Of a stretch of 47,003 nucleotides of DNA, positions 2,368-17,195 are shown piece by piece. The stretch covers positions 1-47,003 of the IMG/VR virus record IMGVR_UViG_3300025000_000166, one strand, 5' to 3'. The position numbers and the translations under genes were made by a program. Within the stretch, counting starts at the first letter, position 1. Each line of letters starts with the position of its first letter. This DNA is from a virus. The notes below the pieces were generated by a model, which saw only the letters and a list, made by a program, of their open reading frames with translations, had not been told where the DNA came from and searched no databases.

Positions 2368-2436
2368 AGCACAGCTCCACCGTGCGTACTCCGACAGTTC
2401 GCGGTCAGAGTTTCCAATTTCCCGTATAATAAAGTC

Positions 2437-2568: not shown

Positions 2569-2767
2569 ATATTGCAGCCAATACAGCCCACAAACCCGCG
2601 AGAACACCAGAAGTCTTGCCAATCCCCTCACCATAAACCTGTGATCCATGAGGGAGAATAATTGCATTTGGATATTTCCGACTTACCATGTTGCTGATTT
2701 CAACAATCGTCTGTTGAGAAACGCCAGGAGGCATCACAATAAACACCGGTTTCATCTGAACACTCAT
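2552..2767 (-). CDS. small hypothetical protein with hydrophobic C-terminus
   Basis: 71 aa. The start at 2767 is chosen because a GGAGGAG ribosome site precedes it and the ATG overlaps the upstream stop (ATGA). The C-terminal 20 residues form a hydrophobic helix ending in FRKRR, suggesting a membrane anchor. No family recognised. Confidence 0.55.
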   Translation of the reverse strand: MSVQMKPVFIVMPPGVSQQTIVEISNMVSRKYPNAIILPHGSQVYGEGIGKTSGVLAGLWAVLAAIFRKRR

Positions 2768-3761: not shown

Positions 3762-4111
3762 TAGTTGTTCCTCGATTGCAGCAACCTGGCACAACCCTTG
3801 CAGGCCAACATCATCGCCTCTTTGGGAGGCTCGTCTTTTTTGACCCTCGCACCTTTCCTGGTTAGTTGCGCCGTTGGCGGTTTTATCTTCGTGATCCGCC
3901 AGCCCTTCTCAGCGATACGTTTGCCAGCATCTTCCTTGTCATACGCCATCACATCCGTGGACCGCATGCAGAACTGGCACGTGAACAGGTACCTGGTCAA
4001 CTTTTTGAATAACCCGTGGTATTCCTTGTTGTGGTGCTCTTCGGGCACTGCGATAAGGTTTTCCTGCTCATCATTATTGTGGATGTGTTCAATCTCTTGA
4101 TCTGTCATCAT
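3761..4111 (-). CDS. hypothetical protein with CxxC motifs
   Basis: 116 aa. A CQFC motif in the middle and CKGC near the end could form a zinc site. The N-terminus is rich in D, E, N and H. No family recognised. It lies in a tightly packed operon between the PolX-like gene and the zinc-ribbon gene. Confidence 0.6.
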   Translation of the reverse strand: MMTDQEIEHIHNNDEQENLIAVPEEHHNKEYHGLFKKLTRYLFTCQFCMRSTDVMAYDKEDAGKRIAEKGWRITKIKPPTAQLTRKGARVKKDEPPKEAMMLACKGCARLLQSRNN

Positions 4112-4118
4112 TCAGCTC

Positions 4119-4649
4119 CTACATACGTTTATTAGGTTCCACCCACTCCAGCCCCAACTCCCGGAACACATCCTCTTCCTCCGGGGTATCCAGCAGCATG
4201 CCGGCCCGCCACAAGCGCCCATCAACGAAATCCATATTGCTCGGGCACATCCCGTCGTCTTTGCGCTTGGTCACCAGCTTGTGCGAGAAATACGCGTTCC
4301 CCGTCCTGATCGTGAAGACACATCCCCACTTCTCAGGCGTCGTCAGGAACAGCTCCACCACCACACCCTGGAGCCGTGCCTGTTTCATCAGCGGACCATT
4401 CTTGAGGATCTCGAACCCGTTCTCCCGCAGCACCTGCTCGATGCGCTGAGAACCGAATTCCTCAGTCCCGAACAAGTCCGCACTGACCTTCTTGGGGATC
4501 AGCACCAGCTCGATATCCCCGGCCGTGGGGGCATGCCGGCGAATACTGCCCGCGATCTCAATCCGGTCGCAGTCAGCTCTCAGCATCTCAACCACCCGGT
4601 CAGCCATGATCTTCGCAAAAGCATAAGGTAATCGTTCACCGTTACTCAT
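4119..4649 (-). CDS. DNA polymerase X-like nucleotidyltransferase
   Basis: 176 aa. The Pol beta/PolX palm signature is visible: IEIAGSIRR (GS at 34-35) followed by GDIELVLIPK (D45, E47 as metal ligands), and a C-terminal segment like the PolX end (LGLEWVEP). It is a minimal nucleotidyltransferase without the HhH and PHP domains of bacterial PolX. Such short PolX-like proteins occur in phage replication modules, where gap filling or DNA repair is assumed. The D-x-E in place of D-x-D at the metal site is worth noting. Overlaps the upstream gene by 8 bases. Confidence 0.75.
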   Translation of the reverse strand: MSNGERLPYAFAKIMADRVVEMLRADCDRIEIAGSIRRHAPTAGDIELVLIPKKVSADLFGTEEFGSQRIEQVLRENGFEILKNGPLMKQARLQGVVVELFLTTPEKWGCVFTIRTGNAYFSHKLVTKRKDDGMCPSNMDFVDGRLWRAGMLLDTPEEEDVFRELGLEWVEPNKRM

Positions 4650-4854
4650 TTGAAGTCCTCTCTATTTGATCCAGTTCTGCCTGCAGCTGGACCCTGTTTT
4701 CTTCCCACCACTTCGCCGACATACGGCCACACATCCGGGAGTAGGCAAGTTTGCGCGCCTCCTCCACCTTCTTCCTGTTCACCCCGGCTTTCATCACCAG
4801 CCTGGCGAATTCCTCCCGTACACTCTCGTGCAATAACCATTTCTTTTCTCGCAT
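4642..4854 (-). CDS. hypothetical helical protein, probably the true 3' part of a frameshifted gene
   Basis: 70 aa, strongly helical and charged (EEFARLV, KKVEEARKLAY, AKWWEENRVQLQAELDQIE). It reads like real coding sequence, unlike the overlapping frame over the same bases. It starts inside the gene that begins at 5041, in the +1 frame relative to it. It may be a separate gene (GAGGGA lies just before its ATG) or the continuation of that gene after a frame change near 4850. Confidence 0.5.
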   Translation of the reverse strand: MREKKWLLHESVREEFARLVMKAGVNRKKVEEARKLAYSRMCGRMSAKWWEENRVQLQAELDQIERTSNE

Positions 4855-5041
4855 ATTCCCTCACTTCATCCAATGTCTTGAAAGTTTGACCCTCGCACAC
4901 CCACACAAAACTGCCAGCGATCCATTCCTTGTGCGTCGGAAATCCAGCCCTGCGCAACTGCTTCCGGATGGCATTGGTATCCGTCGCATCTTTCAGCGCT
5001 GCGAGACCCCGTTTACCTTTACCGAAAGACTGGCGTTTCAT
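4646..5041 (-). CDS. hypothetical protein, C-terminal part doubtful
   Basis: 131 aa as an open frame. The first 63 residues (to about EVREYARKE) look like a normal protein; the remainder is Gly/Glu/Arg-rich frame-shadow sequence. The stop would be at 4646 but the better coding frame for the last 210 bases is that of 4642-4854. Either the two genes overlap greatly or a single gene has a +1 shift near position 4850. It overlaps the upstream gene by 4 bases. Confidence 0.5.
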   Translation of the reverse strand: MKRQSFGKGKRGLAALKDATDTNAIRKQLRRAGFPTHKEWIAGSFVWVCEGQTFKTLDEVREYARKEMVIARECTGGIRQAGDESRGEQEEGGGGAQTCLLPDVWPYVGEVVGRKQGPAAGRTGSNREDFK

Positions 5042-5994
5042 TTTTTAGCCATGGCTTTCTGCTGTGCTTTTCGGCGCTCCGAGAGATCGCTTGCTTGCAG
5101 CGACGATTGGAGCTTCAACTTCCTTATCCTGGCACATACCTGCTTCGGATTTCTTTTCATCATCCTGCCGATCTCCGGGGATTCGAGCCCCTCAGCGCTC
5201 ATCCGCAGCATAAAAGCGTCCGCCCGGGGTGTGATCCATTTCACCCTTATATCTCCGCGCCGGGGATGGCGGAACTTTTCAGCATCACTGCGCTTCACAA
5301 ACCAGTAAGCCCAGTTTCCATCATCCCGTCCGCCGATAAAATAACACTGCATTGCCGGCAGACTATGGTTCACCCGGATGTCAGTCAGCACGGTCCTGCC
5401 ATTCTTCAATCCGTGCATCTTCGCCACCTGAGGAGTCGTCAGCCATTCATCACCCCAGCGAGCCTGTGCCTTTTCCACCAGGCGTCTCAGGTAACCGGGT
5501 TTCATCTTTTCCACTTTGAAATAAGGCCAGTGCTCCGGACGCGTCGCCCAGTATTTCAGATGCTCAAAGTTGATCAAGGTAATGTCACGGCATTCAGTGA
5601 CTGCCGGCTTGCCTTCCATGATCCCCAGGCGCACCCAGGCAGGAACCGTGTGGCTGTCCAGCCCCATGAGCTGGCACACCCGGTGAGCTGTCATCCAGCC
5701 ATTGACCCGGATCGGAGCCGTAAGCCCCTGGCGCGTCCATCGGATCTTGATCGCATTGGTCGACCTTCCAAGGACTTCCGCCATTTCAGCCATTGTCAGG
5801 ATGCCCAGGTTTGCCTGCAGGAACTCATCCTCTGATTTTGACCATGCCGGCATCCGCACCCGCGGCGCTTTTTCACCACGCACTACACCTCCGCGGGATT
5901 GGAGGATTACAGCAGGAAAGCCAAAGGAAAGCATCGAATCTGAAACGATGGTATTGACCGTCAGCTCAAGATCGAATGCCTGATCTACACTCAT
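5038..5994 (-). CDS. DNA-binding protein with two Myb/HTH-like segments
   Basis: 318 aa from the ATG at 5994, which overlaps the ParB-like stop in ATGA. A SANT/Myb-like motif lies at about residues 50-90 (WSKSEDEFL, EMAEVLGRSTNAIKIRWTR), and a similar helical motif near the C-terminus (ADAFMLRMSAEGLESPEIGRMM). The middle has a further HTH-like VCQLMGLDSHTVPAWVRLG. Together they suggest a multi-HTH DNA-binding protein, perhaps binding repeated sites. It is coupled to two ParB-like genes, so a role in partition or replication is possible. Confidence 0.65.
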   Translation of the reverse strand: MSVDQAFDLELTVNTIVSDSMLSFGFPAVILQSRGGVVRGEKAPRVRMPAWSKSEDEFLQANLGILTMAEMAEVLGRSTNAIKIRWTRQGLTAPIRVNGWMTAHRVCQLMGLDSHTVPAWVRLGIMEGKPAVTECRDITLINFEHLKYWATRPEHWPYFKVEKMKPGYLRRLVEKAQARWGDEWLTTPQVAKMHGLKNGRTVLTDIRVNHSLPAMQCYFIGGRDDGNWAYWFVKRSDAEKFRHPRRGDIRVKWITPRADAFMLRMSAEGLESPEIGRMMKRNPKQVCARIRKLKLQSSLQASDLSERRKAQQKAMAKK

Positions 5995-6902
5995 TGAGAC
6001 CGCTCCACCAGGTCGGTAATGAATTCCACCAGCGCGCATCCGCTGCAGGTCGCAGAAGATGCCTGGGGACGCAGCACACATTCGTCACATACCTTTTTCG
6101 CGCTGGCTTCCACCAGTTGCCACGGCGGGACCGTACCGGCAGCCATAAAAATGTCATACCTGGGATGGTTGATCTCGCCGGCGTTCACCGTTGCCAGCCT
6201 CACAGCCGGACACTCGGTTTTTGGAATGCGTACCTCACGCGCGTGCCTGGTCATTCGCGTACAAGCCTCAACCCCAGCCTTCACACTTGCCCCGCGTGCC
6301 GAAAGAGTCTTTGCCAACTCGACCCTGTGCTCTGAATTTTCGATACCCAGCAGCGCATTCACCAGCCTGGAATCTTTTGGAAGTCTCCCGTCCATGATCA
6401 ACGCCTGCACCGGTTCTTCCAGTTCCAGCAGCTTTAAGCGTGAATTGATCAACGTACTGTTGGATCCTATCTTTTGGCTGATCTCGTTGACCGAAAGCCC
6501 CAGCTGCTCTTTCATGCGTTTGAACGCCCTGGCTTCTTCGATGGGGTTGAGGTCCGCCCGCTGCATGTTGGCGATCACTGCCAGAACCAACCTGCGCTCC
6601 GGTCCGATCTCGGTCGGAGGGCTTACCAGGCAGCGGATGTTTGTAAATCCAAGTTGTTTTACAGCTCTCAAGCGCCGCTCGCCATCGATCAGGATGAATG
6701 CCTGGGTTTTGTTGTCTCCATCGCTGGAGTTCATCGCCACGAAATGCGGACCTTCGACCGTGATCGGGTGCAGCAAGCCTTCGCTCTTGATGGACGCTGC
6801 CAGCTCACCAATTCCCTCCACCCCGAAGATCTCCCGCGGTTGGTCCGGGTTGACCAGGATCTGGTCTACAGCAATTTGCTGAATTCTCTGTTGAGCAGTC
6901 AT
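5991..6902 (-). CDS. ParB-like protein with C-terminal Cys motif
   Basis: 303 aa. N-terminal ParB/Srx-like nuclease-fold domain: IQQIAVDQILVNPDQPRE, DGERRLRAVKQLG (74-85) and the HTH part LNPIEEARAFKRM. The C-terminus carries CDEC and CSGC pairs, which could bind zinc. ParB proteins bind DNA sites and use CTP to clamp; phage copies serve plasmid partition, anti-restriction or gene regulation. No ParA is seen nearby. It is the second of two adjacent ParB-like genes (ATGA overlap), so a paired function is likely. Confidence 0.85.
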   Translation of the reverse strand: MTAQQRIQQIAVDQILVNPDQPREIFGVEGIGELAASIKSEGLLHPITVEGPHFVAMNSSDGDNKTQAFILIDGERRLRAVKQLGFTNIRCLVSPPTEIGPERRLVLAVIANMQRADLNPIEEARAFKRMKEQLGLSVNEISQKIGSNSTLINSRLKLLELEEPVQALIMDGRLPKDSRLVNALLGIENSEHRVELAKTLSARGASVKAGVEACTRMTRHAREVRIPKTECPAVRLATVNAGEINHPRYDIFMAAGTVPPWQLVEASAKKVCDECVLRPQASSATCSGCALVEFITDLVERSQ

Positions 6903-8491
6903 GACACCTCTACCGTTTCATCCTCGATCGTGTCCCAACTGCCTGAGGAGAGATCTGTTGCCAGTTCATCCTCTAGCGCGTCCTCTGCGCGTACCCCGGG
7001 AACAGACGAAGTCTGAGACTGGGGTTCGACTGCATCATGCTCAATCTGGATATCCAGCTTCGGCAGCTCGCACTCCACCAGGAATCTATTCAGGTTCGCC
7101 AGGGTAGTTTTGTTATCCCCATATATCAGGTTTTGAACGGATCTGTGAGCCACCATATCAAACAACTCTTCGACGGTGCCGGCGGAAGCCCACTTCTCGC
7201 CGTAAGCCATGCCGCTGATGATCTTACGCCACGCTGCCAGCTGAGCCCCGCCCAAAGCCTTGCTCAAAGAGATCTGTGCCTGTTCCAGTAGGTGAGCTTT
7301 GAGCTCGTTGTCAATTTTCTGCTGTTCCTTCATCTGCCGGCGCGCTTCTTTCAGATCCGCTTCCGTCACCCCATTCTCGCCAGCGGTCAACTCAACTCCC
7401 CGTTCTTTTGCTTTCAAGCATGTGCAGTGTCCGGTGGTTTTACAGCATACGATTGACACCTTAGGAAAACCTTCGACCATCGCTGTATTCCTGGCATACT
7501 CGTTGTATTGCAGTCTCAGGTTCTCACAGCGTTTTTTTATGATGTTTTTCAGCGCCACTTCATTGCCGTAACCAAATTCCGTGTGATCGCCATAATTTAC
7601 TTTATCGTCCTCCAGAACTTCAATACCGGAGATCAAACTTGCCTGTTTTAATTCGATGTATTTCCATGCACTTGTTTTATTGCGGAAACACTCACTGTCC
7701 AGGCACAGGTCTTTACCATCGCGTGTGATCAATAATTCACATCCCTTGCACACACGCAGTTTATTGCCTTCCCGGTCAAGTAATTGCTCATTGTGCTTCC
7801 ATGGCTTTTTATCCAGTGAGGTACCAACACTCTCAATGGCATCGCTGATAAATTCCTGCAGCCGTTCCTGGGTTGTGCCGTTTTCGAGTTCCTTGGCGAC
7901 CAGTTTACTCAATATCCCGTATTCACCATTCCGCCAGGCTTCATGTTTTTTCACCACTTCCGGCAGGCTCTCGTAGGTCAGCACTTCACGCGCTGCGCCC
8001 TCGGTCAAAGTCTTGCCCACCATCCTCTGGATCTCCACCGGCAGGTCCAAAAGCCGTAACTTCCCGCGCACTGCCGAATCACTCAGCCCAAACAGGTGAC
8101 CCACTTCCTCGCTCGTCTTGTGGAATTGATCGCGGTACACCAGCATTGCCCTGGCTTCCTCGATCGGCGTCAGATCCTTGCGCTCGCGGTTCTCCGCCAC
8201 GGCCGCCTCGAACATCTGCTGATCATCCATCTCCACCAGGTTGAGCGGCATCGTCTCAAAGCCCAAATTGCCGGTATCCCGGTTGAGTTTGAACGCTGCC
8301 AGGCGTGTGTGGCCGAATGCAATCTGGATCATCCCGGAACCGTCAGGGTTCAGCCTGGCACTGGGCACCTGCAGCAGCCCGCGTTCAGCGATGCTGATCG
8401 CCACACTCTTCACGTGCTCCGCGTCTTCACCATCCCGCGTTTGGAAAGGATTTGGTTGGATCCTTTCAAGTTCATAATTCTGTACGCTCAT
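6899..8491 (-). CDS. large ParB-like protein
   Basis: 530 aa from the ATG at 8491, preceded by GGAGG at 6-base spacing (an ATG at 8530 would be poorer). N-terminal ParB domain: YELERIQPNPFQTR, FGHTRLAAF (59-67) in place of GERR, then LTPIEEARAML and an HTH (EEVGHLFGLSDSAVRGKLRLL). A cysteine cluster follows (CKGCELL, CLDSECF, CC...CTC). The C-terminal tail near residues 495-505 is encoded by a dispersed GTACCCC hairpin element inserted in frame. It starts downstream of the clamp gene. Confidence 0.85.
   Translation of the reverse strand: MSVQNYELERIQPNPFQTRDGEDAEHVKSVAISIAERGLLQVPSARLNPDGSGMIQIAFGHTRLAAFKLNRDTGNLGFETMPLNLVEMDDQQMFEAAVAENRERKDLTPIEEARAMLVYRDQFHKTSEEVGHLFGLSDSAVRGKLRLLDLPVEIQRMVGKTLTEGAAREVLTYESLPEVVKKHEAWRNGEYGILSKLVAKELENGTTQERLQEFISDAIESVGTSLDKKPWKHNEQLLDREGNKLRVCKGCELLITRDGKDLCLDSECFRNKTSAWKYIELKQASLISGIEVLEDDKVNYGDHTEFGYGNEVALKNIIKKRCENLRLQYNEYARNTAMVEGFPKVSIVCCKTTGHCTCLKAKERGVELTAGENGVTEADLKEARRQMKEQQKIDNELKAHLLEQAQISLSKALGGAQLAAWRKIISGMAYGEKWASAGTVEELFDMVAHRSVQNLIYGDNKTTLANLNRFLVECELPKLDIQIEHDAVEPQSQTSSVPGVRAEDALEDELATDLSSGSWDTIEDETVEVS
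6991..7030. repeat. GTACCCC hairpin element, copy B, inside a ParB-like gene
   Basis: GTACCCCGGGAA, then CAGAC-gaa-GTCTG, then a GGGGTTC arm. Same outer arms as copies A, C and D. It lies in frame in the tail of the large ParB-like gene and encodes part of PQSQTSSVPGVRAE. Confidence 0.65.
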
Positions 8492-8522
8492 CTCAATCCT
8501 CCAATTTGAATTTTCGGTATTT

Positions 8523-9656
8523 CTACCCAAGGTGCATGGGCATCAACAACATCACCAGGCTTTCCGGGTTCTCATCCGGTCGAATCACGATCGGTGTATT
8601 ATTCTTGTTGAATCCGATGCGGATATTCTCACCAGGTATGTGAGAAACACACTCGATGAGCATGCGCTCGTTGACAGCTACCAGGAAAGGCAGTGTGAAT
8701 CCGTCCACTCTGACACATGCCGAGGGGCGAACTTGTGTTACTGCCCTCCCCACAGACTCGGCGGTCGCCGTAACCTCCAGCGAGTGCTCATCCTTGAATT
8801 CCATTCGGGTAGCACCTGAATAATCGCTGATTTTCCTGATCACGCCTGCCGGCTTCAAACTCTCCACAAGTGCTTTTTTATTGATCATGAACCAGCAGTC
8901 AACAGTCTTTGGAATGATCGCGTTCACCTGAGGGAAATTACCTTCAAGCGAATCGAACATCAACTTTTCGTGCCCGCATGTCACCAGGACGCCATAGTTG
9001 GTTTGTGTGATACTGATTTCCGCATCCCCAAACAAACTGGATATCGCTCTGAGCGCCTGGATCGACATCAAACCGCTCAGGTTTTCAATACCCTGGCTGA
9101 TTTTTGAAACCATGAATCCATCGGTGGTGGCGATAAAACCGTCAAAATAAACGCTGTTGAGTACCGGTCTCGCTGGGTCCTTGCTCGCCGCAAACATCAC
9201 CGGCCTGAGAGTAGACGCCAATCCCTTGACCACCACTGGACCGGAAACAACGCTGAAATCCTCAAGCTGGTGGTAAAACAGGAAATTGTCAGCGTCGTAG
9301 ATGGTGATGGAAAAAACTACAGATCCACTCACTGCCATAATTTCCAGTGTGCGCCTCTCAAGGTCAGAGATCAAAATAACTTGCTCTTCACCCTGCATCG
9401 ATTCCAGTATTTTTCTCAAGAGAATTATCGGCACAACGTAAGGTTCATCGATCATTACAACCGGTGCTTTTACCACCTGTGTAACCACGAATTCGCCATC
9501 AGCACACGCCAGCTCTAACCCGTCAGGGTATTTGGTCATATCAAAATCAATTCGTACCAGGTGTTTTTCCGGGTAATCACTGGTAAGTTGATCTGAATAC
9601 TTGGATAACTTTTTCAAACTCTTGATCAATTCGGTGCGGTTCAAAATTGCTTTCAC
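8523..9656 (-). CDS. dnaN: DNA polymerase III beta subunit (sliding clamp) homolog
   Basis: 377 aa, the usual clamp length. Three-domain DnaN layout: residues 1-120 with an N-terminal MKAILNRTELIKSLKKLSKY, a middle domain with VLNSVYFDGFIATTDGFMVSK (the DnaN 'P-hL-hG-..-hh-TD-h' core) and a C-terminus ending NPESLVMLLMPMHLG, matching the ...LVMPM-L end of bacterial clamps. It would encircle DNA and tether host polymerases. The start is GTG at 9656 with AGGAGG five bases upstream. It lies between the replisome organizer and ParB genes. A phage-encoded clamp without a phage polymerase implies that host polymerase loads onto it. Confidence 0.9.
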   Translation of the reverse strand: MKAILNRTELIKSLKKLSKYSDQLTSDYPEKHLVRIDFDMTKYPDGLELACADGEFVVTQVVKAPVVMIDEPYVVPIILLRKILESMQGEEQVILISDLERRTLEIMAVSGSVVFSITIYDADNFLFYHQLEDFSVVSGPVVVKGLASTLRPVMFAASKDPARPVLNSVYFDGFIATTDGFMVSKISQGIENLSGLMSIQALRAISSLFGDAEISITQTNYGVLVTCGHEKLMFDSLEGNFPQVNAIIPKTVDCWFMINKKALVESLKPAGVIRKISDYSGATRMEFKDEHSLEVTATAESVGRAVTQVRPSACVRVDGFTLPFLVAVNERMLIECVSHIPGENIRIGFNKNNTPIVIRPDENPESLVMLLMPMHLG

Positions 9657-9686
9657 TTCATCCTCCTAGCTCGTTTATTATTTTGT

Positions 9687-9700
9687 GTTTCTGTAGAAAC
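9687..9700. repeat. GTTTC-N4-GAAAC palindrome
   Basis: GTTTCTGTAGAAAC in the short gap before the clamp gene. The same palindrome with other 4-base centres occurs at 236-249 and 17249-17262, each followed by G or preceded by GT. A regulator operator is possible. Confidence 0.4.
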
Positions 9701-9717
9701 GATTGGTGTAAATCAAT

Positions 9718-10617
9718 TCACGCCGGTATTTCTTCCAGCTCCATCGCGGACACCACCGAGAGTTCCACCTCGAACCCCGCCAGTCCGCTCAGGATCCGCG
9801 TCAACATAGGACCTGCCCTTGCGAGCGCAGTATCCCTGCCATAACTGCTCACCGCCACCAGCTTGAACACACTCCCCTCGACCCCCACCATCTTCAACGG
9901 CCGTATCCAGGTATCAAAATCCGCCTTAGACATCTCAGCCTGCAATTGACCGATCGCCTCGTTCCAGATCTTCAACTGGTTCGGGCGTGATATCTTAGCC
10001 ACAGGGGATGCAGACGAGCGCTGAGCCTTCGCATTGTTGACCGGCACGGGCAACGCATCACAATCACCATCACCCTTAACATCACCATCAACATCTTCAT
10101 TACCATTACCCTTAACATCACCATTAACATCATGATTAGGTAGAGGACTTGAAAACGCTTTCAATTCATTAGGTAGAGGACTTGAAAACACTTTCAATTC
10201 ATTAGGTAGCCGATTTGAATTCCAATTGTCAGATTGGATGATCTGCCGGCCTTTTCCGTGATAGCGGAACCTGTCACACCACCCATCAGGTGCCGGATAT
10301 TTCGAATAACCCAGCCACTCAGCATCCCGCTGGTAAACCTGCCAGTTCTGGATCTGTAAATACTTCTTACCTTCCACCTCGTAGCCCAGGATGAAACCGT
10401 GCGCTTCCAGCTCCTGCAGGTCCAGCTTCACATCTTCCAGGCTGATATCTTCCAGCGGCCACACAACTGACCGGATCAGCGCAGGGTTCGCCTGGCATCT
10501 GCCCTGGTCATCCACTGTCAGGATCAGGCCGTACCACATGTCCCGCTGCCTGAAAGTGAGCTGAGAAACAGACTCGGACCGCCGAATCTTTGGATCAATA
10601 AATCGATGTGTCGCCAT
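9718..10617 (-). CDS. phage replisome organizer with DnaA domain I-like C-terminus
   Basis: 299 aa. The N-terminus (to about 125) resembles phage replication initiators with winged-helix folds (MWYGLILTVDDQGR, ELEAHGFILGYEVEGKKYLQIQNW). Residues 136-190 are a repetitive linker (LPNELKVFSSP repeated, then Gly/Asp/Asn repeats). Residues 215-292 match the DnaA N-terminal domain: IWNEAIGQLQAEMSKADFDTWIRPL. That domain binds DnaB helicase in bacteria, so this protein probably recruits host helicase to the phage origin. The DNA repeats in the linker are candidate iterons. The gene abuts the previous stop (TAGATG). Confidence 0.8.
   Translation of the reverse strand: MATHRFIDPKIRRSESVSQLTFRQRDMWYGLILTVDDQGRCQANPALIRSVVWPLEDISLEDVKLDLQELEAHGFILGYEVEGKKYLQIQNWQVYQRDAEWLGYSKYPAPDGWCDRFRYHGKGRQIIQSDNWNSNRLPNELKVFSSPLPNELKAFSSPLPNHDVNGDVKGNGNEDVDGDVKGDGDCDALPVPVNNAKAQRSSASPVAKISRPNQLKIWNEAIGQLQAEMSKADFDTWIRPLKMVGVEGSVFKLVAVSSYGRDTALARAGPMLTRILSGLAGFEVELSVVSAMELEEIPA
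10056..10225. other. putative replication origin inside the initiator gene
   Basis: Two perfect-register 33-bp direct repeats (10135-10167 and 10168-10200, one base different) plus a decayed third begin ATTAGGTAG. Each full unit holds the inverted repeat TTGAAA-N4-TTTCAA. Next to them lies an A/T-rich stretch of ACAT/CAC/CATTA-like short repeats (10056-10134). Iterons plus an easily melted run within the initiator gene is the layout of lambdoid origins. Confidence 0.6.
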
Positions 10618-10893
10618 CTACGAAACCCTTCCAAACTGCCGCAGTGACCGAAGAGGGAGCGCCCCGCCGCCCGCGCTCATTGCCGGCTGCTGAATTTCAA
10701 TGTCATACGTGCCTTCGCGCCAGTTGATCGCTGTCACAGTCCCCCGCTTCTCAATTCCAGATTCCTCATTGACTACGCGCACCAATTCCCCAACCTGCGG
10801 CATTGGCAGGTCCAAACTTCTATAAATCCCTTTTACTTCCTGGAGGATCCCGCTTGTGCGCTTCTCGATAACTGTTAAAGGTTTTTTTGCCAT
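10618..10893 (-). CDS. hypothetical protein
   Basis: 91 aa. Mid-part GELVRVVNEESG..KRGTVTAINWREGTYDIEIQ resembles a small SH3-like or beta-barrel segment. No family recognised. Immediately upstream of the replisome organizer and probably co-transcribed. Confidence 0.6.
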   Translation of the reverse strand: MAKKPLTVIEKRTSGILQEVKGIYRSLDLPMPQVGELVRVVNEESGIEKRGTVTAINWREGTYDIEIQQPAMSAGGGALPLRSLRQFGRVS

Positions 10894-10939
10894 AGGATCT
10901 AACCTTTCCGTGCAGATTTTTAGATTAAAGTAAAGAACT

Positions 10940-11362
10940 TCAACTTACAAAAGACATTTGTGGACCCCACATGCGCGCAGCTTCATTGCGCATTGCTTTT
11001 TCTTGCGCCAGCAGGTCCATCGCGAAATCATGGATCTGTACCTTCACAAATGCTTCAAACTCCGCCCAGTTCTCGCACAGCCAGTACCCGCCCTTTTTTC
11101 CGCCGGTGGAGCCTATCGGCCAGCCCTGCTTGCGTAAACCGTTGATCACTTCGCGGAAATACCTGGTATCGGTGATGGTGATTCCCTGGTTGTTCAACTC
11201 GAACAGCATCCGCTGCCCGCTGATCGCCTTCTTCCTGCCTGTGTGGAACGAGAGGATCAACAGCACGGCCTTCTCCAGGCGCTGCACATCGTCTGCCGGC
11301 ATGCTTGCCAGCCTGTATGCTTCCTGCCCGATGTTTAATGCTGTTGTGTGTTGGTGTGTCAT
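10940..11362 (-). CDS. putative winged-helix DNA-binding protein
   Basis: 140 aa. ITDTRYFREVINGLRKQGWPI, then GGKKGGYWLCENWAEFEAF, is the helix-turn-helix plus wing pattern seen in small phage regulators that read short DNA. A GGGAGG ribosome site precedes the ATG. It is the first protein gene downstream of the RNA island in the minus-strand early operon, and diverges from the tRNA promoter on the plus strand. Confidence 0.6.
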   Translation of the reverse strand: MTHQHTTALNIGQEAYRLASMPADDVQRLEKAVLLILSFHTGRKKAISGQRMLFELNNQGITITDTRYFREVINGLRKQGWPIGSTGGKKGGYWLCENWAEFEAFVKVQIHDFAMDLLAQEKAMRNEAARMWGPQMSFVS

Positions 11363-11376
11363 TCTTTCCTCCCGAG

Positions 11377-11405
11377 TTGCATTTCTTTTTCTCTCGTTGT
11401 ATAGT
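11377..11405 (+). promoter_or_regulatory. promoter for the tRNA
   Basis: TTGCAT (11377-11382), a 17-base spacer and TATAGT (11400-11405) end 9 bases before the tRNA. Good sigma-70-type spacing. Confidence 0.6.
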
Positions 11406-11414
11406 TACCTATGT

Positions 11415-11487
11415 GCCCCTGTAGCCTAATGGATAAGGTGTCGCTTTACCGAAGCGGAAGATCTCAGTTCGACCCTGAGCAGGGGCA
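11415..11487 (+). tRNA. tRNA, anticodon ACC (Gly GGU by the code) with an Arg-like body
   Basis: Complete cloverleaf: acceptor GCCCCTG/CAGGGGC, D-arm GCCT-AATGGATA-AGGT, anticodon stem TCGCT/AGCGG with loop TTACCGA, variable AAGAT, T-arm CTCAG-TTCGACC-CTGAG and discriminator A. CCA is not encoded. The anticodon at 11448-11450 is ACC, which is rare (Gly normally uses GCC). The D-loop AATGGATA and A20 are typical of tRNA-Arg. So the charging identity is unclear. It lies on the strand opposite to the surrounding genes. Confidence 0.85.
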
Positions 11488-11496
11488 CAGACCGTA

Positions 11497-11525
11497 TTGA
11501 CATCAGCAGTACAAATCGCTATAAT
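11497..11525 (+). promoter_or_regulatory. perfect consensus sigma-70 promoter
   Basis: TTGACA (11497-11502), exactly 17 bases, TATAAT (11520-11525). No protein ORF on this strand follows, so it most likely drives a short RNA. Confidence 0.8.
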
Positions 11526-11528
11526 AGG

Positions 11529-11612
11529 GTTGCTTCGGTAAAGCAACGAACTGAGGAACCTGATCTTTCTCCGTTGAGGAGGACGGCAACCGCCCCTTTG
11601 TGGGCGGTTGAA
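11529..11612 (+). ncRNA. small structured RNA complementary to the phage tRNA
   Basis: Starts about 4 bases after a perfect promoter. Folds visible: GTTGCTT-cggta-AAGCAAC (11529-11547), CTCC-gttga-GGAG, and AACCGCCC-ctttgt-GGGCGGTT (about 11588-11609), the last terminator-like but without a U-run. Three blocks are complementary to the tRNA just upstream: 13 bases of the anticodon arm, 9 of the T-arm 5' side, and about 8 (one wobble) of the variable region. The blocks are in permuted order, so it is not a simple antisense copy. Confidence 0.5.
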
Positions 11613-11648
11613 CGTTAATTGGTACTGGCTTCTAATCATCTTTCCTCC

Positions 11649-11687
11649 TGCCAGGTGGACCTTTTCGATGGTGTGATCCACCTGGCA
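11649..11687. terminator. 11-bp inverted repeat in the RNA island
   Basis: TGCCAGGTGGA (11649-11659) and TCCACCTGGCA (11677-11687) are perfectly complementary around a 17-base loop. It lies just downstream of the small RNA and may end plus-strand transcription. On the minus strand it is followed by AGGAGGAAAGATG, so it could also sit in a leader. Confidence 0.45.
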
Positions 11688-11764
11688 AATAACTACTTGA
11701 GAATGGATTTGGTTCTACTGCTTAGCGTTTGTCCGGATACGATTAATTACATCCATTCTCCAAA

Positions 11765-11906
11765 CTGGCGGCCAGGATTCGAACCTGGTAGACTTTTGCG
11801 ACTTTGCGCTGGTTAGGTTTCCAGCTGCCTCGTTCTTAAGTAGGTGCATCGTCAAGGGAGTCGTCCTTCCCACGTTAGTGATGTGTTCCCACCACATCGC
11901 CGCCAG
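11765..11906 (-). ncRNA. non-canonical tRNA-like RNA, 142 nt
   Basis: Minus strand: acceptor-like CTGGCGG (11900-11906) pairs with CCGCCAG (11765-11771), immediately next to a perfect T-arm (CCAGG-TTCGAAT-CCTGG). A D-arm-like hairpin (GATGTG/CACATC, 7-base loop) follows the 5' acceptor strand. The middle is about 90 bases instead of about 25 and has no clear anticodon arm; it contains GCTGG/CCAGC and GGGA/TCCC stems. Could be an intron-bearing or decayed tRNA, or a tRNA mimic. Confidence 0.4.
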
Positions 11907-11913
11907 TCATTGC

Positions 11914-11933
11914 AAAAAACCTCACAAGGTTTT
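11914..11933 (-). terminator. intrinsic terminator after the second tRNA-like element
   Basis: AAAACCT-TGTG-AGGTTTTTT on the minus strand, directly after the CCA of the tRNA-like element. Confidence 0.65.
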
Positions 11934-12005
11934 GGCGAGCGGCCCTGATTCGAACAGGTCTTCCGGGTAGCCTGGTTAGGGGGGATAACCAGGTACTTCC
12001 GCTCA
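11933..12005 (-). ncRNA. tRNA-like RNA lacking a D-arm, with encoded CCA
   Basis: Minus strand: TGAGCGG pairs with CCGCTCG (7 bp, one T-G), and a T-arm with loop TTCGAAT sits next to the 3' acceptor strand; CCA and a terminator follow. Between are only two linkers and one long hairpin, GTACCTGGTTA / TAACCAGGcTAC, with the loop TCCCCCC. There is no D-arm and no proper anticodon arm. The outer GTA/cTAC with a bulged C recalls the GTACCCC hairpin repeats. It looks like a tRNA mimic rather than a decoding tRNA. Confidence 0.4.
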
Positions 12006-12042
12006 TAGCGCTTTCCATCCCAAAAGTACTGTTGTCTTCGGA

Positions 12043-12104
12043 CCCGGACGGAGCCAGGGAGGATCAACTCCGTCCGGGGGCTAAACCGGCATACTCGCCG
12101 GGTT
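12043..12104. repeat. two adjacent hairpins upstream of the tRNA-like RNAs
   Basis: CCCGGACGGAG (12043-12053) / CTCCGTCCGGG (12068-12078) is a perfect 11-bp stem. AACCGGC / GCCGGgTT at 12084-12104 forms a second. Both lie between the end of the 89-aa gene and the tRNA-like folds, so they belong to the same minus-strand transcript. Confidence 0.5.
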
Positions 12105-12124
12105 CGCTCATTCGATGATCACGC

Positions 12125-12394
12125 TCATGCGAACGTGAGGATTCCCTTGATCTGGTTCACCCTGTTATCCAGCTCCACCACAGGGTTCGTGTTTGCGCCA
12201 ACTGCCTCAAGCGCCCGCAGTAGAAGGGTTAGATCTGAATTTGCTTTTGCCACAATTGCCTCAATCCCTTCTTCATCGTTTACCTCGTTCGTGCTGATCC
12301 GCTCAAGTTCTTTTTTGGTGCTGCGGATGATCTCTGCCACTCCGTCCCGTACATTCATTGCGTTATTCGGCCATTCCCGTGGTGTCGTTGCCAT
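12125..12394 (-). CDS. hypothetical helical protein
   Basis: 89 aa, almost entirely helical by composition (KKELERISTNEV, LTLLLRALEAVG, LDNRVNQIKG). No family recognised. It is the first protein gene upstream of the RNA island; 42-bp-spaced repeats lie in its leader. Confidence 0.6.
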   Translation of the reverse strand: MATTPREWPNNAMNVRDGVAEIIRSTKKELERISTNEVNDEEGIEAIVAKANSDLTLLLRALEAVGANTNPVVELDNRVNQIKGILTFA

Positions 12395-12425
12395 TTCGTT
12401 TGCTCCTCTCGAACGTCCGGATCCG

Positions 12426-12481
12426 ACCCGGATTCATCCAAAAACAAACTTTTTACAGCCTAATACCACCCGGATTCGTCC
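12426..12481. promoter_or_regulatory. paired operator-like repeats
   Basis: ACCCGGATTCATCC (12426-12439) and ACCCGGATTCGTCC (12468-12481) differ at one base and are 42 bp apart, four helical turns. GTCCGGAT(C) half-sites surround them. They lie in the leader of the 89-aa minus-strand gene, fitting a dimeric regulator such as the adjacent ribbon-helix-helix or XRE protein. Confidence 0.5.
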
Positions 12482-12550
12482 GGATGTTCATACCCTCTCA
12501 AATTACCGTACTCTGTTGTCATGAAAACCGATCGCTTCCACAACCATGAC

Positions 12551-12595
12551 CCTTGAAAAAGAAAGATCAACCATCCCAATTACCCTGGTTGATCT
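12551..12595 (-). terminator. intrinsic terminator after the ribbon-helix-helix gene
   Basis: AGATCAACC / GGTTGATCT stem on the minus strand, followed by TTTCTTTTTC. It overlaps the last codons of the gene. Confidence 0.6.
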
Positions 12596-12819
12596 GACAA
12601 CTGAATACTCGCATCCACCTTCATAACCCCATCCAGCCCCTGCACAGCCAGCATCCTCTTCCCGCCATTCCCCACAACAGCCCCATTCACTGCCGGCACC
12701 GAATCCAGAAGCCAGCGAATAACGCCAACCTTGGTGCGGTTCGTGTGGGTGGCGATCTGCATAATTCGGTCGTTTGTTTCTTTGTCAAGCCTAATTACAG
12801 GAGATTGCTTTTCATTCAT
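12580..12819 (-). CDS. putative ribbon-helix-helix regulator (Cro-like position)
   Basis: 79 aa from the ATG at 12819 (GGTGG ribosome site; a GTG at 12831 is the alternative). The N-terminal part SPVIRLDKETNDRIMQIATHTNRTKVGVIRWLLDS has the beta-helix-helix pattern of Arc/MetJ-type DNA-binding proteins. It is divergent from the XRE-like gene across a shared operator, which is the cro/cI arrangement of a lysis-lysogeny switch. Confidence 0.65.
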   Translation of the reverse strand: MNEKQSPVIRLDKETNDRIMQIATHTNRTKVGVIRWLLDSVPAVNGAVVGNGGKRMLAVQGLDGVMKVDASIQLSDQPG

Positions 12820-12839
12820 TAGTTTATCCACCGTTTTCT

Positions 12840-12892
12840 GTGCTAATTTTGTTTGCTATGTATACATTAGCACCTTTGATAACAAATGTCAA
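12840..12892 (-). promoter_or_regulatory. early promoter with overlapping operator
   Basis: On the minus strand, TTGACA (12892-12887), a 17-base spacer and TAATGT (12869-12864) form a strong promoter. A perfect 8-bp inverted repeat, GTGCTAAT (12840-12847) / ATTAGCAC (12866-12873), covers the -10 box. A dimer bound there would block the early operon. Confidence 0.75.
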
Positions 12893-12904
12893 TAGGGTAT
12901 TTCA

Positions 12905-13357
12905 ATGAATTCGAAAATTGGTTATATTTACTTTATGGATAAAGGGAGATTGGCTAATTACTTTGAAAAGAAGTATCTGCAATGGCAAATGGATCACGGC
13001 AGAATTTCCCAGGCAACTTTCGCTGAGATGTTGCGCGTTTCTCGCGGCTACCTAAATCAGCTGCTGGAAGGTAAGCGCGATTCAATGACCTACCATACCG
13101 CCCGGTATGTGGCCGATGTGCTCCACGATTACGAGATATTACAGATCCTGGGCTACGAACTTCCGACGCCGGAAGAGCGCGATCCCTTTTTCGGGTATCC
13201 CCCCGATTTTGTCAAAGCGCTCAAATCCGCGCGTGATAAAGTAGCCACCCTGGGGATTGCCGACAGTTCCCCCGAAGGTGCAGCAATATACAATTCCGAG
13301 ATCACCAAGGTCTTGAACAATCGGACCACCAGCACAGACGAGTCAGGCAACACGTAA
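12905..13357 (+). CDS. XRE-like HTH protein, probable lysogeny repressor
   Basis: 150 aa. Residues about 30-60 carry an HTH of the XRE type (ISQATFAEMLRVSRGYLNQLLEGKR). The C-terminus has no peptidase motif of LexA/CI, so control would not be by self-cleavage. It is divergent from the ribbon-helix-helix gene and starts a plus-strand lysogeny island with integrase. The start is uncertain: ATG at 12905 or at 12935 (MDKGRLANYF). Confidence 0.75.
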   Translation: MNSKIGYIYFMDKGRLANYFEKKYLQWQMDHGRISQATFAEMLRVSRGYLNQLLEGKRDSMTYHTARYVADVLHDYEILQILGYELPTPEERDPFFGYPPDFVKALKSARDKVATLGIADSSPEGAAIYNSEITKVLNNRTTSTDESGNT

Positions 13358-13457
13358 CGCAAACTTTTCATCAAAGCCCCTTTGGGTAACGGCAAATACA
13401 GTGTCATCATTATAGAACACTATTTCTACATTTGCAACTTAAAAAGAGGAGGAAATA

Positions 13458-13823
13458 ATGGTCTACCAAAGGAAAATAGAAGCAGAGATTGTCGGAGAAT
13501 CCTTTGACAACCAGGACGGAACATCCAGACAGTTCGGCATTCAAAAATTTTGCACTCCCGGAAAACCAGTGAAACTTATCCGCGAGCCGAACAATAAATT
13601 CGATAAGAGCGCCATAAGCGTATGGGTTCGAGGTAAAGCGTTTTTAATCAAGGAACATGATCACCAGGTGGGTTATTTAAGCAAGGAACTAGCCGCCGAG
13701 TTTGCCCCGCTCATGGATGCCGGTGCTCAACCTGAAGCTTTTGTAAAAAAGGTGTTTGGCGGAACCGATAAAAAACCGAATTATGGTCTTCTGATTGAAA
13801 TATTGAAAACTGAAAGCAAGTAA
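13458..13823 (+). CDS. HIRAN-domain protein
   Basis: 121 aa. Matches the HIRAN pattern: VGESFDN..., KPVKLIREPNNKFDKSAISVWV, then VGYLSKELAAEFAPLMDAG. HIRAN domains bind 3' ends of single-stranded DNA in HLTF/Rad5 and occur alone in bacteria and phages. It has an AGAGGAGG ribosome site. Located in the lysogeny island between repressor and integrase, so it may be expressed in the lysogen and act in DNA-damage sensing or anti-phage functions (inference). Confidence 0.8.
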   Translation: MVYQRKIEAEIVGESFDNQDGTSRQFGIQKFCTPGKPVKLIREPNNKFDKSAISVWVRGKAFLIKEHDHQVGYLSKELAAEFAPLMDAGAQPEAFVKKVFGGTDKKPNYGLLIEILKTESK

Positions 13824-13855
13824 TTAGTCAATTGTAGAAATAATGGAGGGAAACA

Positions 13856-14185
13856 ATGGCAAAAGAACCTAAGATCTGTCCGTACTGCCACCTGGAAATA
13901 ACCAGTGACCAGGATTCACTCACCACCCAAAGCGGTGTGCCCTACCACAAGGTGTGCTACGAAAATATAAACATCGACAGCATGGTCGCCACCATTGAAA
14001 AGAAGTACCCCAGTTCAGACGCCAAACTCGCCCGCATCATCAGCCAAAACAACATCATTATCGCCTCAGCAGAGAAAACGCAAGGGCACCTGAGCACCAT
14101 CAAAACCATCATCGTAATCTTTATGATCCTCACCATCGTCGCAGCCATTCTCCAGGGCTGCTCAGCGCTCATGTCAGGCTATTAA
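13856..14185 (+). CDS. zinc-ribbon membrane protein
   Basis: 109 aa. An N-terminal CPYC and a later HKVC give a LIM-like zinc site; the C-terminus has one transmembrane helix (about 81-103). A GGAGGG ribosome site is present. Probably membrane-tethered with a cytosolic zinc domain. Position next to integrase makes it a candidate superinfection-exclusion or lysogenic conversion protein, without direct evidence. Confidence 0.6.
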   Translation: MAKEPKICPYCHLEITSDQDSLTTQSGVPYHKVCYENINIDSMVATIEKKYPSSDAKLARIISQNNIIIASAEKTQGHLSTIKTIIVIFMILTIVAAILQGCSALMSGY

Positions 14186-14294
14186 ACCGTTGAACCCCCG
14201 ACCGCTATTATCGTCCTGCACCCTTGCAATCACAGGTACATTACTCCCGTTTTCAAGGGATGTATGCGACCTGCGGTTACCCCTGTTTCCCGTA

Positions 14295-14341
<47 letters not shown>

Positions 14342-14344
14342 ATA

Positions 14345-14381
14345 GACCGCTTTTATCCTCCACCAAGGTATAAAAGCGGTC
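14345..14381. terminator. 12-bp inverted repeat between attP and integrase
   Basis: GACCGCTTTTAT (14345-14356) and ATAAAAGCGGTC (14370-14381) are perfect arms around a 13-base loop. It can serve as terminator or as an arm-binding region for recombination proteins. Confidence 0.5.
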
Positions 14382-14447
14382 GCTCGTTACCCCTCATCGC
14401 CGCTTCCACCGAACCATAGTTCGCTATTATCAAAATCAAGGTGAGCC

Positions 14448-15410
14448 ATGAAACTAATTGACGCGATCGACGGATTTACCTACCACCTCACCAGCAACGG
14501 CAAAAGCCCCGCCACCATCCGGCTTTACACCACCTATCTTAAAAAAATGGATGACTTCCTGATCCACCCCGAACTGGAGAAGATCACCCGCGCCGATATC
14601 ATGCGTTACTACGGTCACATGCGCTCAGACTACATCCCCTTCCGCCTCTCCGGAGACTCCAAACCCCTGGCCGCCGGCACCATCCAGAACATATGGATCT
14701 CCATCCGTTCCTTTTACAACTGGGCCGAGCAGGAACTGCATATTCCCCGCGTGGATGGATCCATTGAGAAGCCCGAATTTGATTACCCCGAGATAGCCCC
14801 CTTCTCCCAGGCAGATATTCGCGCACTTTTAAAAGCTAGTGAATATAACCGCGCCACCACTCCTGGAAATCGCATGGCCTTTCGAGCAAAACGTCACACG
14901 CGCGTCCGCGACCAGGCTATTATCATACTCCTCCTGGATACAGGTATTCGCGTCTCAGAAGCTGCCCGCCTGCACATCAAAGACGTGAACTTCAAAAACG
15001 CAGAGATCTTCCTTGAACCCTTCGGCAGTGGACGTAAAACAAAATCCCGCCACATCCCCATTGGTAACACCTGCAGAAAGTTTCTCTGGTCTTATATTTC
15101 CAACCGCGGAGACACCGGCCCAAATGACTCGCTCTTGATCACCCGGGATGGCTCACCGATGGACCGCGATTCCATCCGCCATGTCCTCAGTGAAATCGCC
15201 TCCAAAGCCGGCGTGACCCACTGTCACCCGCACCGCTTCCGCCACACCTTCGCCATTGAATTCCTGCGCAACGGCGGTGATGTCTTCTCCCTGCAGAAGA
15301 TCCTCGGGCACTCCACCCTGGAGATGGTCAACACCTACCTGCAGCTCGCCTCCTCAGATGTTGCCGCAGCTCACCGCCGTGCATCACCCGCGGATAACCT
15401 GAAACTATAA
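14448..15410 (+). CDS. int: tyrosine recombinase / phage integrase
   Basis: 320 aa. N-terminal SAM-like core-binding domain (1-100), then the catalytic domain with R168 (TGIRVSEAARL), K197 or K199, H262-x-x-R265 (HRFRH), H288 (LGHST) and nucleophile Y297 (NTYLQL). Closer to XerC/D-like integrases in length and lack of an extra arm-binding domain. It catalyses site-specific insertion at tRNA-Pro(GGG). It is next to attP in the plus-strand lysogeny island. Confidence 0.95.
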   Translation: MKLIDAIDGFTYHLTSNGKSPATIRLYTTYLKKMDDFLIHPELEKITRADIMRYYGHMRSDYIPFRLSGDSKPLAAGTIQNIWISIRSFYNWAEQELHIPRVDGSIEKPEFDYPEIAPFSQADIRALLKASEYNRATTPGNRMAFRAKRHTRVRDQAIIILLLDTGIRVSEAARLHIKDVNFKNAEIFLEPFGSGRKTKSRHIPIGNTCRKFLWSYISNRGDTGPNDSLLITRDGSPMDRDSIRHVLSEIASKAGVTHCHPHRFRHTFAIEFLRNGGDVFSLQKILGHSTLEMVNTYLQLASSDVAAAHRRASPADNLKL

Positions 15411-15411
15411 A

Positions 15412-15660
15412 ATGCGCGAAGACCTGCCGGCACCGCCTGTTGCCACCTTTACAGTGTACGAGATTGCCTACACGAAGAACCTGATTAATTATGTCATCGC
15501 TGAGGTGACCTACCCGTACATTTCCATAACGCACACCATGAAGATATCCCGGAAAGATATCCTCACATTTTTACGCTCCGGAGACCGTTTTCTCTACCAG
15601 GATACTTTCTGGAGCCTGGAGGATTCCGGTCTCATTACTCCCGTCGAGAAAAGTGCGTAA
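15412..15660 (+). CDS. hypothetical protein downstream of integrase
   Basis: 82 aa, starts one base after the integrase stop. Sequence has an alternating aromatic/Thr/Val pattern with SRKDILTFLRSGDRFLYQD; no family recognised. Position fits an excision or accessory factor, but no HTH is evident. No ribosome site, so it would depend on coupling to integrase. Confidence 0.5.
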   Translation: MREDLPAPPVATFTVYEIAYTKNLINYVIAEVTYPYISITHTMKISRKDILTFLRSGDRFLYQDTFWSLEDSGLITPVEKSA

Positions 15661-15672
15661 AGTATCAAAAGG

Positions 15673-15699
15673 ATTGAAATTTGTTGGCTAAATTTCAAT
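15673..15699 (+). terminator. AT-rich inverted repeat
   Basis: ATTGAAATTT / AAATTTCAAT, perfect 10 bp around GTTGGCT, followed by TTATTTT on the plus strand. Confidence 0.45.
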
Positions 15700-15747
15700 T
15701 TATTTTCATAATAGGTCTATTTACACATACAAAGCGCTAAATAAACA

Positions 15748-15767
15748 AACTCCCCTTGCGGGGAGTT
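15748..15767. terminator. terminator between converging operons
   Basis: AACTCCCC-TTGC-GGGGAGTT, a strong 8-bp stem with tetraloop at the meeting point of the integrase operon and the late minus-strand operon. Confidence 0.7.
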
Positions 15768-15827
15768 AAACACGGATGACATTTGAGCATTGTCAAGAGG
15801 CTTCACCCGTTTACTGCTTAGCGGAGG

Positions 15828-16100
15828 TCAAACTGTGATTAGTTTTCCATCAGTCAAATAACCGTGCCATCCAATCGACCAGTCCGGATTATCTTTCACA
15901 AGAATTGAGGGGGTTAGCGTCGGGAGTTCTTTACTCCCATTCCATTGCCAGGCACCTGGTCCAGCGATTGGAATGACAACCGTCCCCAAAAACGAATTGT
16001 CGTCATACCGAATAGCCATTGTCTGGTCTTTGTTCAAAAAGCACCAATCACCTTTGTGGCCTAGTCGATCAAGTTCATCAAGATTTTTGAATTGTGCCAT
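15828..16100 (-). CDS. DUF6527-like protein
   Basis: 90 aa. The pattern WQWNGS-K-LPTLTPSILV and the later WHGYLTDGKLI is characteristic of the DUF6527 family found in phages. Function unknown. Last gene of the late operon; overlaps the upstream gene by 23 bases. Confidence 0.65.
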   Translation of the reverse strand: MAQFKNLDELDRLGHKGDWCFLNKDQTMAIRYDDNSFLGTVVIPIAGPGAWQWNGSKELPTLTPSILVKDNPDWSIGWHGYLTDGKLITV

Positions 16101-16338
16101 CCTGCACCTTCCTGAAAACCGTCTTCCTGCGTCCGTCAGTCCCCCGCACGTAGACCCGTTCCAAAACTCCCGCCTTTACCTTGTCCCGCAGGATCTCTTC
16201 GCAGTATTTCAAAGAATAGCCGGTTGTCGCTTCCATCATTTCAGCGTCCACATCCCCGGGCCTTCTTTCCTGCAGCACATGCACACCCGCCAGCTCCTGC
16301 AGCAGTTCATTGATCTCATCACCTATTAAAGAGGTCAT
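16078..16338 (-). CDS. small winged-helix-like protein
   Basis: 86 aa. An HTH-like DAEMMEATTGYSLKYCEEILRDKVKAGVL followed by a basic wing (GTDGRRKTVFRKV). Probably a DNA-binding protein. Overlaps the metallophosphoesterase stop by 4 bases. Confidence 0.5.
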   Translation of the reverse strand: MTSLIGDEINELLQELAGVHVLQERRPGDVDAEMMEATTGYSLKYCEEILRDKVKAGVLERVYVRGTDGRRKTVFRKVQDGTIQKS

Positions 16339-17195
16339 ATCACCTCCACAGTCCTTGTATCGATCGTGGAATACAGCCGGTGTGTTTCAGTCTTCACCCC
16401 GTTTTCGAACACAAATACCACCAGCCCGTGCGTGATATCATTCTGGCTCTGGGTCGCCTGCGTCGCATGGTCATTGAACATCGAGAAGGACGGCAGCACA
16501 TGCAGCTCTGCCTTGAAATCCTTCATCTCCAGGTACTCGTAGACCGGCGTGTGATAATGCCCCCTCAGCACCAGGTCAGCCGGCTTCCTCCGGTTCATGA
16601 TCTCCCGCTGCATCAGGTCTCGCAGGTAGAAGCGCGCCACGTTGCCCGCCAGCCAGTTACGGGATCCCGGATGCGGACCGTGATGCGCATAATCTGTCAC
16701 AATTCCCCCGTACTCCAACAGACCGTGATAGAGCGGTTTCACATCCACACCCGGGAATCGCGCCGAAAGTAATTGCGCCAGGATCAGCTCCAGTGAGCCT
16801 TCCCCGGCGTTATGCGCCTGCGTGCCGATCACCTGCCGGTACGCCTTCAGTTTCTTGTACCCGAACCACGGACGCGCATTGTAATCCGCGATAACCGCCT
16901 GGTCAGAAAGCCGTGTGCTCACCAATCCCTGCGGATACTTCACCCCGTGGCACGCATCACCCAGGTGCATCACCAGCATCTCGCAGCCGTCCGCGATCGC
17001 AAACGCATCTTCCATGCACTTGGAGCGCGTCTTCCACAGGTAGCGCTGAGACTGACTCATTGCCGGCTGCCATGGCTTGAAATTCCCCAGCTCGTCTTCC
17101 TGGAACAAAACGGTTTCCGGATTCATCAACGCCAGCTTGAACCCGCCGTGCGTGTCAGTTTCTACCACCTGGATCTTTCGGTTGGTTTTTCGCAA
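16335..17195 (-). CDS. calcineurin-like metallophosphoesterase
   Basis: 286 aa. Metal motifs in order: DTHGG (14-18, D-x-H), HLGDACHG (G79-D80 and H83), GTQAHN, YAHHGPH and LRGHYHTP, the D-x-H / GD / GNH-like / H / GHxH set of the family. It would cleave phosphodiester or phosphomonoester bonds with two metal ions. Located after the endolysin in the late operon, an unusual place; phage relatives occur near DNA-processing genes. Confidence 0.8.
   Translation of the reverse strand: MRKTNRKIQVVETDTHGGFKLALMNPETVLFQEDELGNFKPWQPAMSQSQRYLWKTRSKCMEDAFAIADGCEMLVMHLGDACHGVKYPQGLVSTRLSDQAVIADYNARPWFGYKKLKAYRQVIGTQAHNAGEGSLELILAQLLSARFPGVDVKPLYHGLLEYGGIVTDYAHHGPHPGSRNWLAGNVARFYLRDLMQREIMNRRKPADLVLRGHYHTPVYEYLEMKDFKAELHVLPSFSMFNDHATQATQSQNDITHGLVVFVFENGVKTETHRLYSTIDTRTVEVI

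Follow-up and report, generated by a model that had tools for sequence, protein, structure and literature searches.

ColE1 RNAI is a full-length cis-antisense RNA to RNAII with matched kissing loops, and the lambda OOP and P22 sar RNAs are short cis-antisense transcripts that act on the mRNAs they overlap; we know of no match to a tRNA in either of the two phage RNAs. The nearest precedent that we found for the RNA described here is sRNA2 of Pseudomonas phage PAK_P3, a small RNA of ~100 nt encoded between two phage tRNA genes, in which an 11-nt stretch was linked by the authors to the T-psi-C loops of host tRNAs and for which an effect on translation was proposed (PMC4933390). A search of the open-access literature yielded no report of a tRNA-directed antisense sRNA in a phage.

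Here, we describe a candidate small RNA (sRNA) encoded in a 47-kb virus record (IMGVR_UViG_3300025000_000166, positions 1-47,003, referred to as a whole as the window), which represents a tailed temperate phage. A sequence-only reading had proposed that this locus encodes a small RNA with a perfect promoter and with permuted complementarity to the tRNA beside it. The tests of the promoter and of the complementary blocks support such an RNA as a candidate, and show that the complementarity is non-random. Like PAK_P3 sRNA2, the candidate is a small phage RNA located directly beside a phage tRNA gene. However, whereas sRNA2 (L105:46345-46478) carries sense tRNA-like sequence (GGAGGTTCGATTCCTC) and no antisense block of at least 7 nt to its flanking tRNAs, the present RNA carries antisense blocks, and whereas expression of sRNA2 was measured by RNA-seq, the present RNA is a prediction from sequence. 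We rejected sRNA2 as a homologue, the longest shared word being 6 nt. Within the sRNA2 interval, a T-arm-like hairpin (GGAGG-TTCGATT-CCTC) can be read inside an acceptor-like stem (GGGCU/AGCCC), and sRNA2 may thus itself be a reduced tRNA-like RNA.

A tRNA gene and a candidate sRNA opposite the early operon

The phage encodes a terminase, a portal protein, a tyrosine integrase and a repressor-like protein, and its leftward operon includes genes for a replication initiation protein, a DnaN-like clamp and ParB-like proteins. A scan of genome contigs returned only a 27% integrase match on a Gracilibacteria contig. The locus is a 762-base gap (11363-12124) flanked by two minus-strand genes, the plus strand of which carries a tRNA-Gly(ACC) gene and the candidate sRNA. 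The arrangement recalls lambda OOP and P22 sar in that a short RNA lies opposite the early operon of a temperate phage, but differs from them in that the sRNA matches a tRNA. The features of the locus are as follows.

10940-11362, 12125-12394 and 12580-12831, all minus strand: neighbouring genes
11377-11405, plus strand: possible weak tRNA promoter, TTGCAT-17-TATAGT (8/12), read by eye and under the threshold of the promoter scan
11409-11639, minus strand: opposing 76-codon open reading frame (ORF) with a good ribosome site (AGGAGGAAAG)
11415-11488, plus strand: tRNA-Gly (anticodon ACC), called by ARAGORN and matched by Rfam RF00005 (57.3 bits), with no encoded CCA
11497-11525, plus strand: sigma-70 consensus promoter, TTGACA-17-TATAAT, from the promoter scan
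11532-11612, plus strand: candidate sRNA, start predicted at ~11532, with predicted hairpins at 11533-11556, ~11561-11586 and 11587-11610
11587-11610, plus strand: 9-bp GC-rich hairpin that would close the sRNA, with no T-run after it
12905-15410, plus strand: repressor-like gene and integrase, downstream of the sRNA promoter

The tRNA-Gly(ACC) gene, for which the site at 11377-11405 is a possible promoter judging from its sequence, is the sole tRNA that ARAGORN finds in the whole phage. Its body presumably resembles that of a bacterial tRNA-Arg, with an Arg-like D-arm (CCTAATGGATAAGG, A20) and A73; with a Gly anticodon on an Arg-like body, the amino-acid identity of this tRNA is ambiguous.

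The ideal promoter claimed by the sequence-only reading is present, with all 12 consensus positions occupied, and no other sigma-70 site on either strand of the window scores 12/12, the runners-up reaching 10/12. The relative L002, introduced below, also has a 12/12 promoter, in its case ahead of the leftward genes, which makes it probable that the host uses promoters of this type. Judged from its promoter, the sRNA segment is probably transcribed. Transcription is predicted to begin at 11532, 7 nt beyond the -10 box and exactly where the first complementary block opens, which speaks for an antisense function, as does the fold of 11528-11615 (-37.4 kcal/mol, z-score of -3.6 relative to shuffled sequences). 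No terminator-like site was found on the plus strand from 11612 to 13191, and this counts against such a function and against a discrete sRNA. That the RNA contains no ORF holds for the plus strand, but not for the minus strand, where the 76-codon ORF runs across the sRNA. The codon usage of this ORF is non-coding (-0.19 bits per codon, against means of +0.29 for real genes and -0.14 for open non-coding frames), which led us to reject a minus-strand protein-coding gene at 11409-11639 and again favours the antisense interpretation. Rfam searches, even with E-values of up to 10, matched only the tRNA, and the candidate sRNA fits no described family. A T-box or riboswitch leader was also considered and dropped, there being no Rfam match and no supported plus-strand ORF directly after the segment.

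Permuted complementarity to the tRNA

Sequence comparison places three blocks within the sRNA that are all complementary to tRNA-Gly(ACC), in agreement with the sequence-only reading.

11532-11544, plus strand: block A', 13 nt, exact reverse complement of the anticodon arm (11443-11455)
11547-11555, plus strand: block T', 9 nt, exact reverse complement of the T-arm 5' side and loop (11463-11471)
11562-11569, plus strand: block V', 8 nt, reverse complement of the variable region (11456-11463) with one G-U pair
11440-11471, plus strand: 32-nt tRNA segment (gene bases 26-57), the reverse complement of which, halved and swapped, corresponds to the sRNA 5' domain

Blocks A' and T' are only 2 nt apart, and A' extends to 15 nt (11530-11544 against 11443-11457) when G-U pairs are allowed. 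None of 5000 dinucleotide shuffles reached either a 13-nt match (the maximum was 11) or a total of 22 nt, and on both strands of the 47-kb phage no other 87-nt segment contains the 13-nt match except the opposite strand of the tRNA itself. For 104 control tRNAs, drawn from four other phage loci of which two are near-identical phages, the 200 nt to each side contain no complementary stretch that exceeds 11 nt. Together, these three results make a chance origin unlikely. The match is also selective for tRNA-Gly(ACC), since none of the control phage tRNAs has more than 9 nt complementary to the sRNA. In its complementarity to a target beyond chance (13 + 9 + 8 nt), the candidate resembles trans-acting base-pairing bacterial sRNAs.

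The blocks are indeed not in simple antisense order: the reverse complement of 11440-11471 is split 16+16 and the halves are swapped. The swapped halves read GCTTCGGTAAAGCGAC-CGAACTGAGATCTTCC and their counterpart in the sRNA GCTTCGGTAAAGCAA-CGAACTGAGgaacctGATCTTTC or, in extended form, GCTTCGGTAAAGCAA-CGAACTGAG-GAACCT-GATCTTTC. The first 40 bases of the sRNA are thus a scrambled mirror of the middle of the tRNA, and the three blocks reduce to one event. By this resemblance, the sRNA segment is very probably derived from the tRNA, and its order points to an inverted, circularly permuted copy, such as could arise from two nearby template switches. As a consequence of the swapped block order, one continuous antisense duplex is impossible, which counts against an antisense function.

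Predicted pairing during and after synthesis

The sequence-only reading saw in block A' a hairpin with a loop fully antisense to the anticodon loop, which would permit a kissing interaction. This hairpin can form locally, but its predicted probability is 0.05 at most when the full-length RNA is folded, and on these grounds we rejected the kissing-loop model as the dominant state. In the predicted fold of 11532-11612, the two anti-tRNA blocks pair together (CUUCGGU in the first, ACUGAGG in the second) and leave no accessible pairing region in the folded sRNA, which counts against an antisense function. What the candidate shares with ColE1 RNAI/RNAII is its small size, a strong promoter and a structure with hairpin loops that can complement a partner RNA, but here the order of the blocks is permuted and the loop in question is predicted to be closed.

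Co-folding, which leaves out the tertiary structure and modification of the tRNA, yielded a gain of only -2.6 kcal/mol for the full-length sRNA with the tRNA, equalled or beaten by 12 of 79 unrelated tRNAs and 21 of 200 shuffles; with the sRNA start set at 11528 instead, the gain drops to -0.5 kcal/mol. The nascent RNA behaves differently: for 11532-11556 the gain is -3.7 kcal/mol, matched by one of the 79 other phage tRNAs and one of 200 shuffles, and for 11532-11572 it is -5.8 kcal/mol, matched by six of 79 tRNAs and three of 200 shuffles. Because the nascent gain is unusual whereas the full-length gain lies within the range of the controls, the models suggest that pairing between sRNA and tRNA is plausible during synthesis and doubtful afterwards. 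The structure and modification of the mature tRNA would be a further hindrance to pairing.

Distribution among relatives and other RNAs of the gap

A single syntenic relative was found, L002 (IMGVR_UViG_3300025009_000292), which is colinear with positions 1-17,000 of the window and ~70-80% identical where aligned. Between the same flanking genes, L002 has neither the tRNA nor the sRNA, and contains two short minus-strand frames, read by eye. Scans of viral contigs, queried with the 140-aa neighbour, the DnaN-like protein, the integrase, the terminase, the replication protein, an sRNA 23-mer, the RNA2 motif (see below) and a tRNA pattern, gave L002 as the only syntenic relative, and DNA searches of phage and plasmid records returned nothing. 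These searches revealed no second copy of the sRNA or of tRNA-Gly(ACC); this result and the absence from L002 both count against an antisense function. No antisense RNA adjoins a relative's tRNA-Glu (G040/L086). We infer that the cassette is a recent, self-promoted, moron-like insertion opposite the early operon.

A copy of a tRNA 3' part lies at ~14300-14342, directly upstream of the integrase gene (14448-15410), and reads as tRNA-Pro with a GGG anticodon; the frames upstream of the L002 integrase read likewise. From its sequence and position, the tRNA-Pro 3'-end copy is a probable attachment site. Within the gap, perfect inverted repeats with stems of 10-11 bp occur at 11649-11687, 11699-11760 and 12043-12078, the first of which adjoins, on the upstream side, the minus-strand ribosome site at ~11640.

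The gap also encodes two conserved tRNA-like RNAs on the minus strand, which are better backed by conservation than the sRNA that mirrors the tRNA. RNA3 (11934-12008; 5805-5879, also minus strand, in L002) is a tRNA-like RNA without a D-arm, composed of an acceptor stem, a T-arm looped by UUCGAAU and a hairpin with a C-run as its loop. All 18 chosen pairs of RNA3 form in both the window and L002, a count that is partly built in, as the pairs were picked to fit both sequences; stronger evidence comes from the seven pairs changed on both sides, compared with none in slid controls. RNA3 has no Rfam family, no ARAGORN call and no copy in the other loci searched. RNA2 (11764-11907; ~5323-5508, minus strand, in L002) combines an acceptor stem (CUGGCGG/CCGCCAG) and a T-arm around an insert of ~100 nt, which is longer in L002 and includes the conserved words GUGGGAACACA, CGAGGCAG and GGAAACCUAAC; it has no Rfam match.

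Possible roles and origin of the sRNA

The sequence-only reading had offered silencing, protection or baiting of tRNA as possible roles. The reading that we tentatively place first is antisense action of the sRNA on the tRNA beside it, or on the precursor of that tRNA, while the sRNA is being made. The tRNA-Gly(ACC) gene and the separately promoted sRNA would then form a small plus-strand cassette opposite the leftward early operon, with the 5' domain of the sRNA presumably derived from 32 inverted and internally permuted tRNA bases. The sRNA would be strongly transcribed, and its initial 25-40 bases would provide most of the contact, annealing to the anticodon arm and/or the T-arm side of the tRNA or precursor while the hairpins of the sRNA are still open; the amount of usable tRNA-Gly(ACC) may thereby be lowered or timed. 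Very unlikely, in our estimate, is the more elaborate idea of an RNA-only pair, in which a tRNA of unusual identity would be checked by its own permuted antisense RNA, itself born from the tRNA gene by inverted, circularly permuted duplication, the two forming a toxin-antitoxin-like control unit on a tRNA.

Nearly as likely as the antisense role, and like it short of an even chance, is that a real sRNA carries its complementarity as a tinkered relic, the footprint of a recent inverted template-switch duplication, and either acts via its hairpins or on different targets, or has no action. A swap of precisely 16+16 bases about a single breakpoint (11455/11456) resembles rearrangement rather than designed antisense, full-length pairing with the tRNA is no better than that of the controls, and the module, missing from L002, may be a recent gain. 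Yet a perfect promoter sited exactly where the copy starts is difficult to regard as a by-product, and the 13- and 9-nt blocks are intact while the flanking sequence has diverged. Ranked behind both, and rather unlikely, is a plus-strand antisense or interfering transcript that would run from the promoter at 11497 against the leftward early operon, possibly into the repressor and integrase genes at 12905-15410, and help lysogeny much as the lambda OOP or P22 sar antisense RNAs do, the likeness to the tRNA being incidental. The three neighbouring genes are all on the minus strand, the plus strand has no terminator-like site from 11612 to 12905, and a repressor-like gene and the integrase lie downstream on that strand, but this scenario leaves the tRNA complementarity unexplained, requires a long leader of 1.4 kb and would have to pass the GC-rich hairpin at 11587-11610 and others downstream, which may stop transcription.

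Weaker still, and improbable, is that the minus strand is the one at work, the early mRNA bearing an anticodon-arm mimic (GUUGCUUUACCGAAGCAAC, with the 7-nt loop of the tRNA) in or beside the ORF at 11409-11639, for example as a decoy for tRNA-binding or tRNA-cutting proteins. The minus-strand hairpin reproduces the tRNA loop and three stem pairs exactly, with the next pair changed from C-G to U-A, it is predicted to be more stable than the arm of the tRNA itself (-8.1 versus -6.0 kcal/mol), and a strong ribosome site precedes the ORF; against this, the codon usage of the ORF is non-coding, the perfect promoter is on the plus strand, and the copy of the T-arm lacks the 3' half, so that no T-arm could form. 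Chance similarity in an unrelated sRNA would gain some credit from multiple testing, since the feature was picked by scanning a 47-kb window, and from hairpin stems resembling their own reverse complement; given the shuffles, the uniqueness in the genome, the control tRNAs and the two long blocks only 2 nt apart, we regard it as extremely unlikely.

If the sRNA does not bind the tRNA, the locus would be a neat relic of template switching making new structured RNAs. If it does bind, the phage would encode an antisense RNA that regulates a tRNA, a type of target that we did not find for phage sRNAs in the open-access literature, and the locus would be a visible case of an sRNA gene born from a tRNA gene through inversion. 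It would also offer a concrete case for the role of the small RNAs encoded beside phage tRNA genes, a question that has stood since T4 band C and D and PAK_P3 sRNA2.
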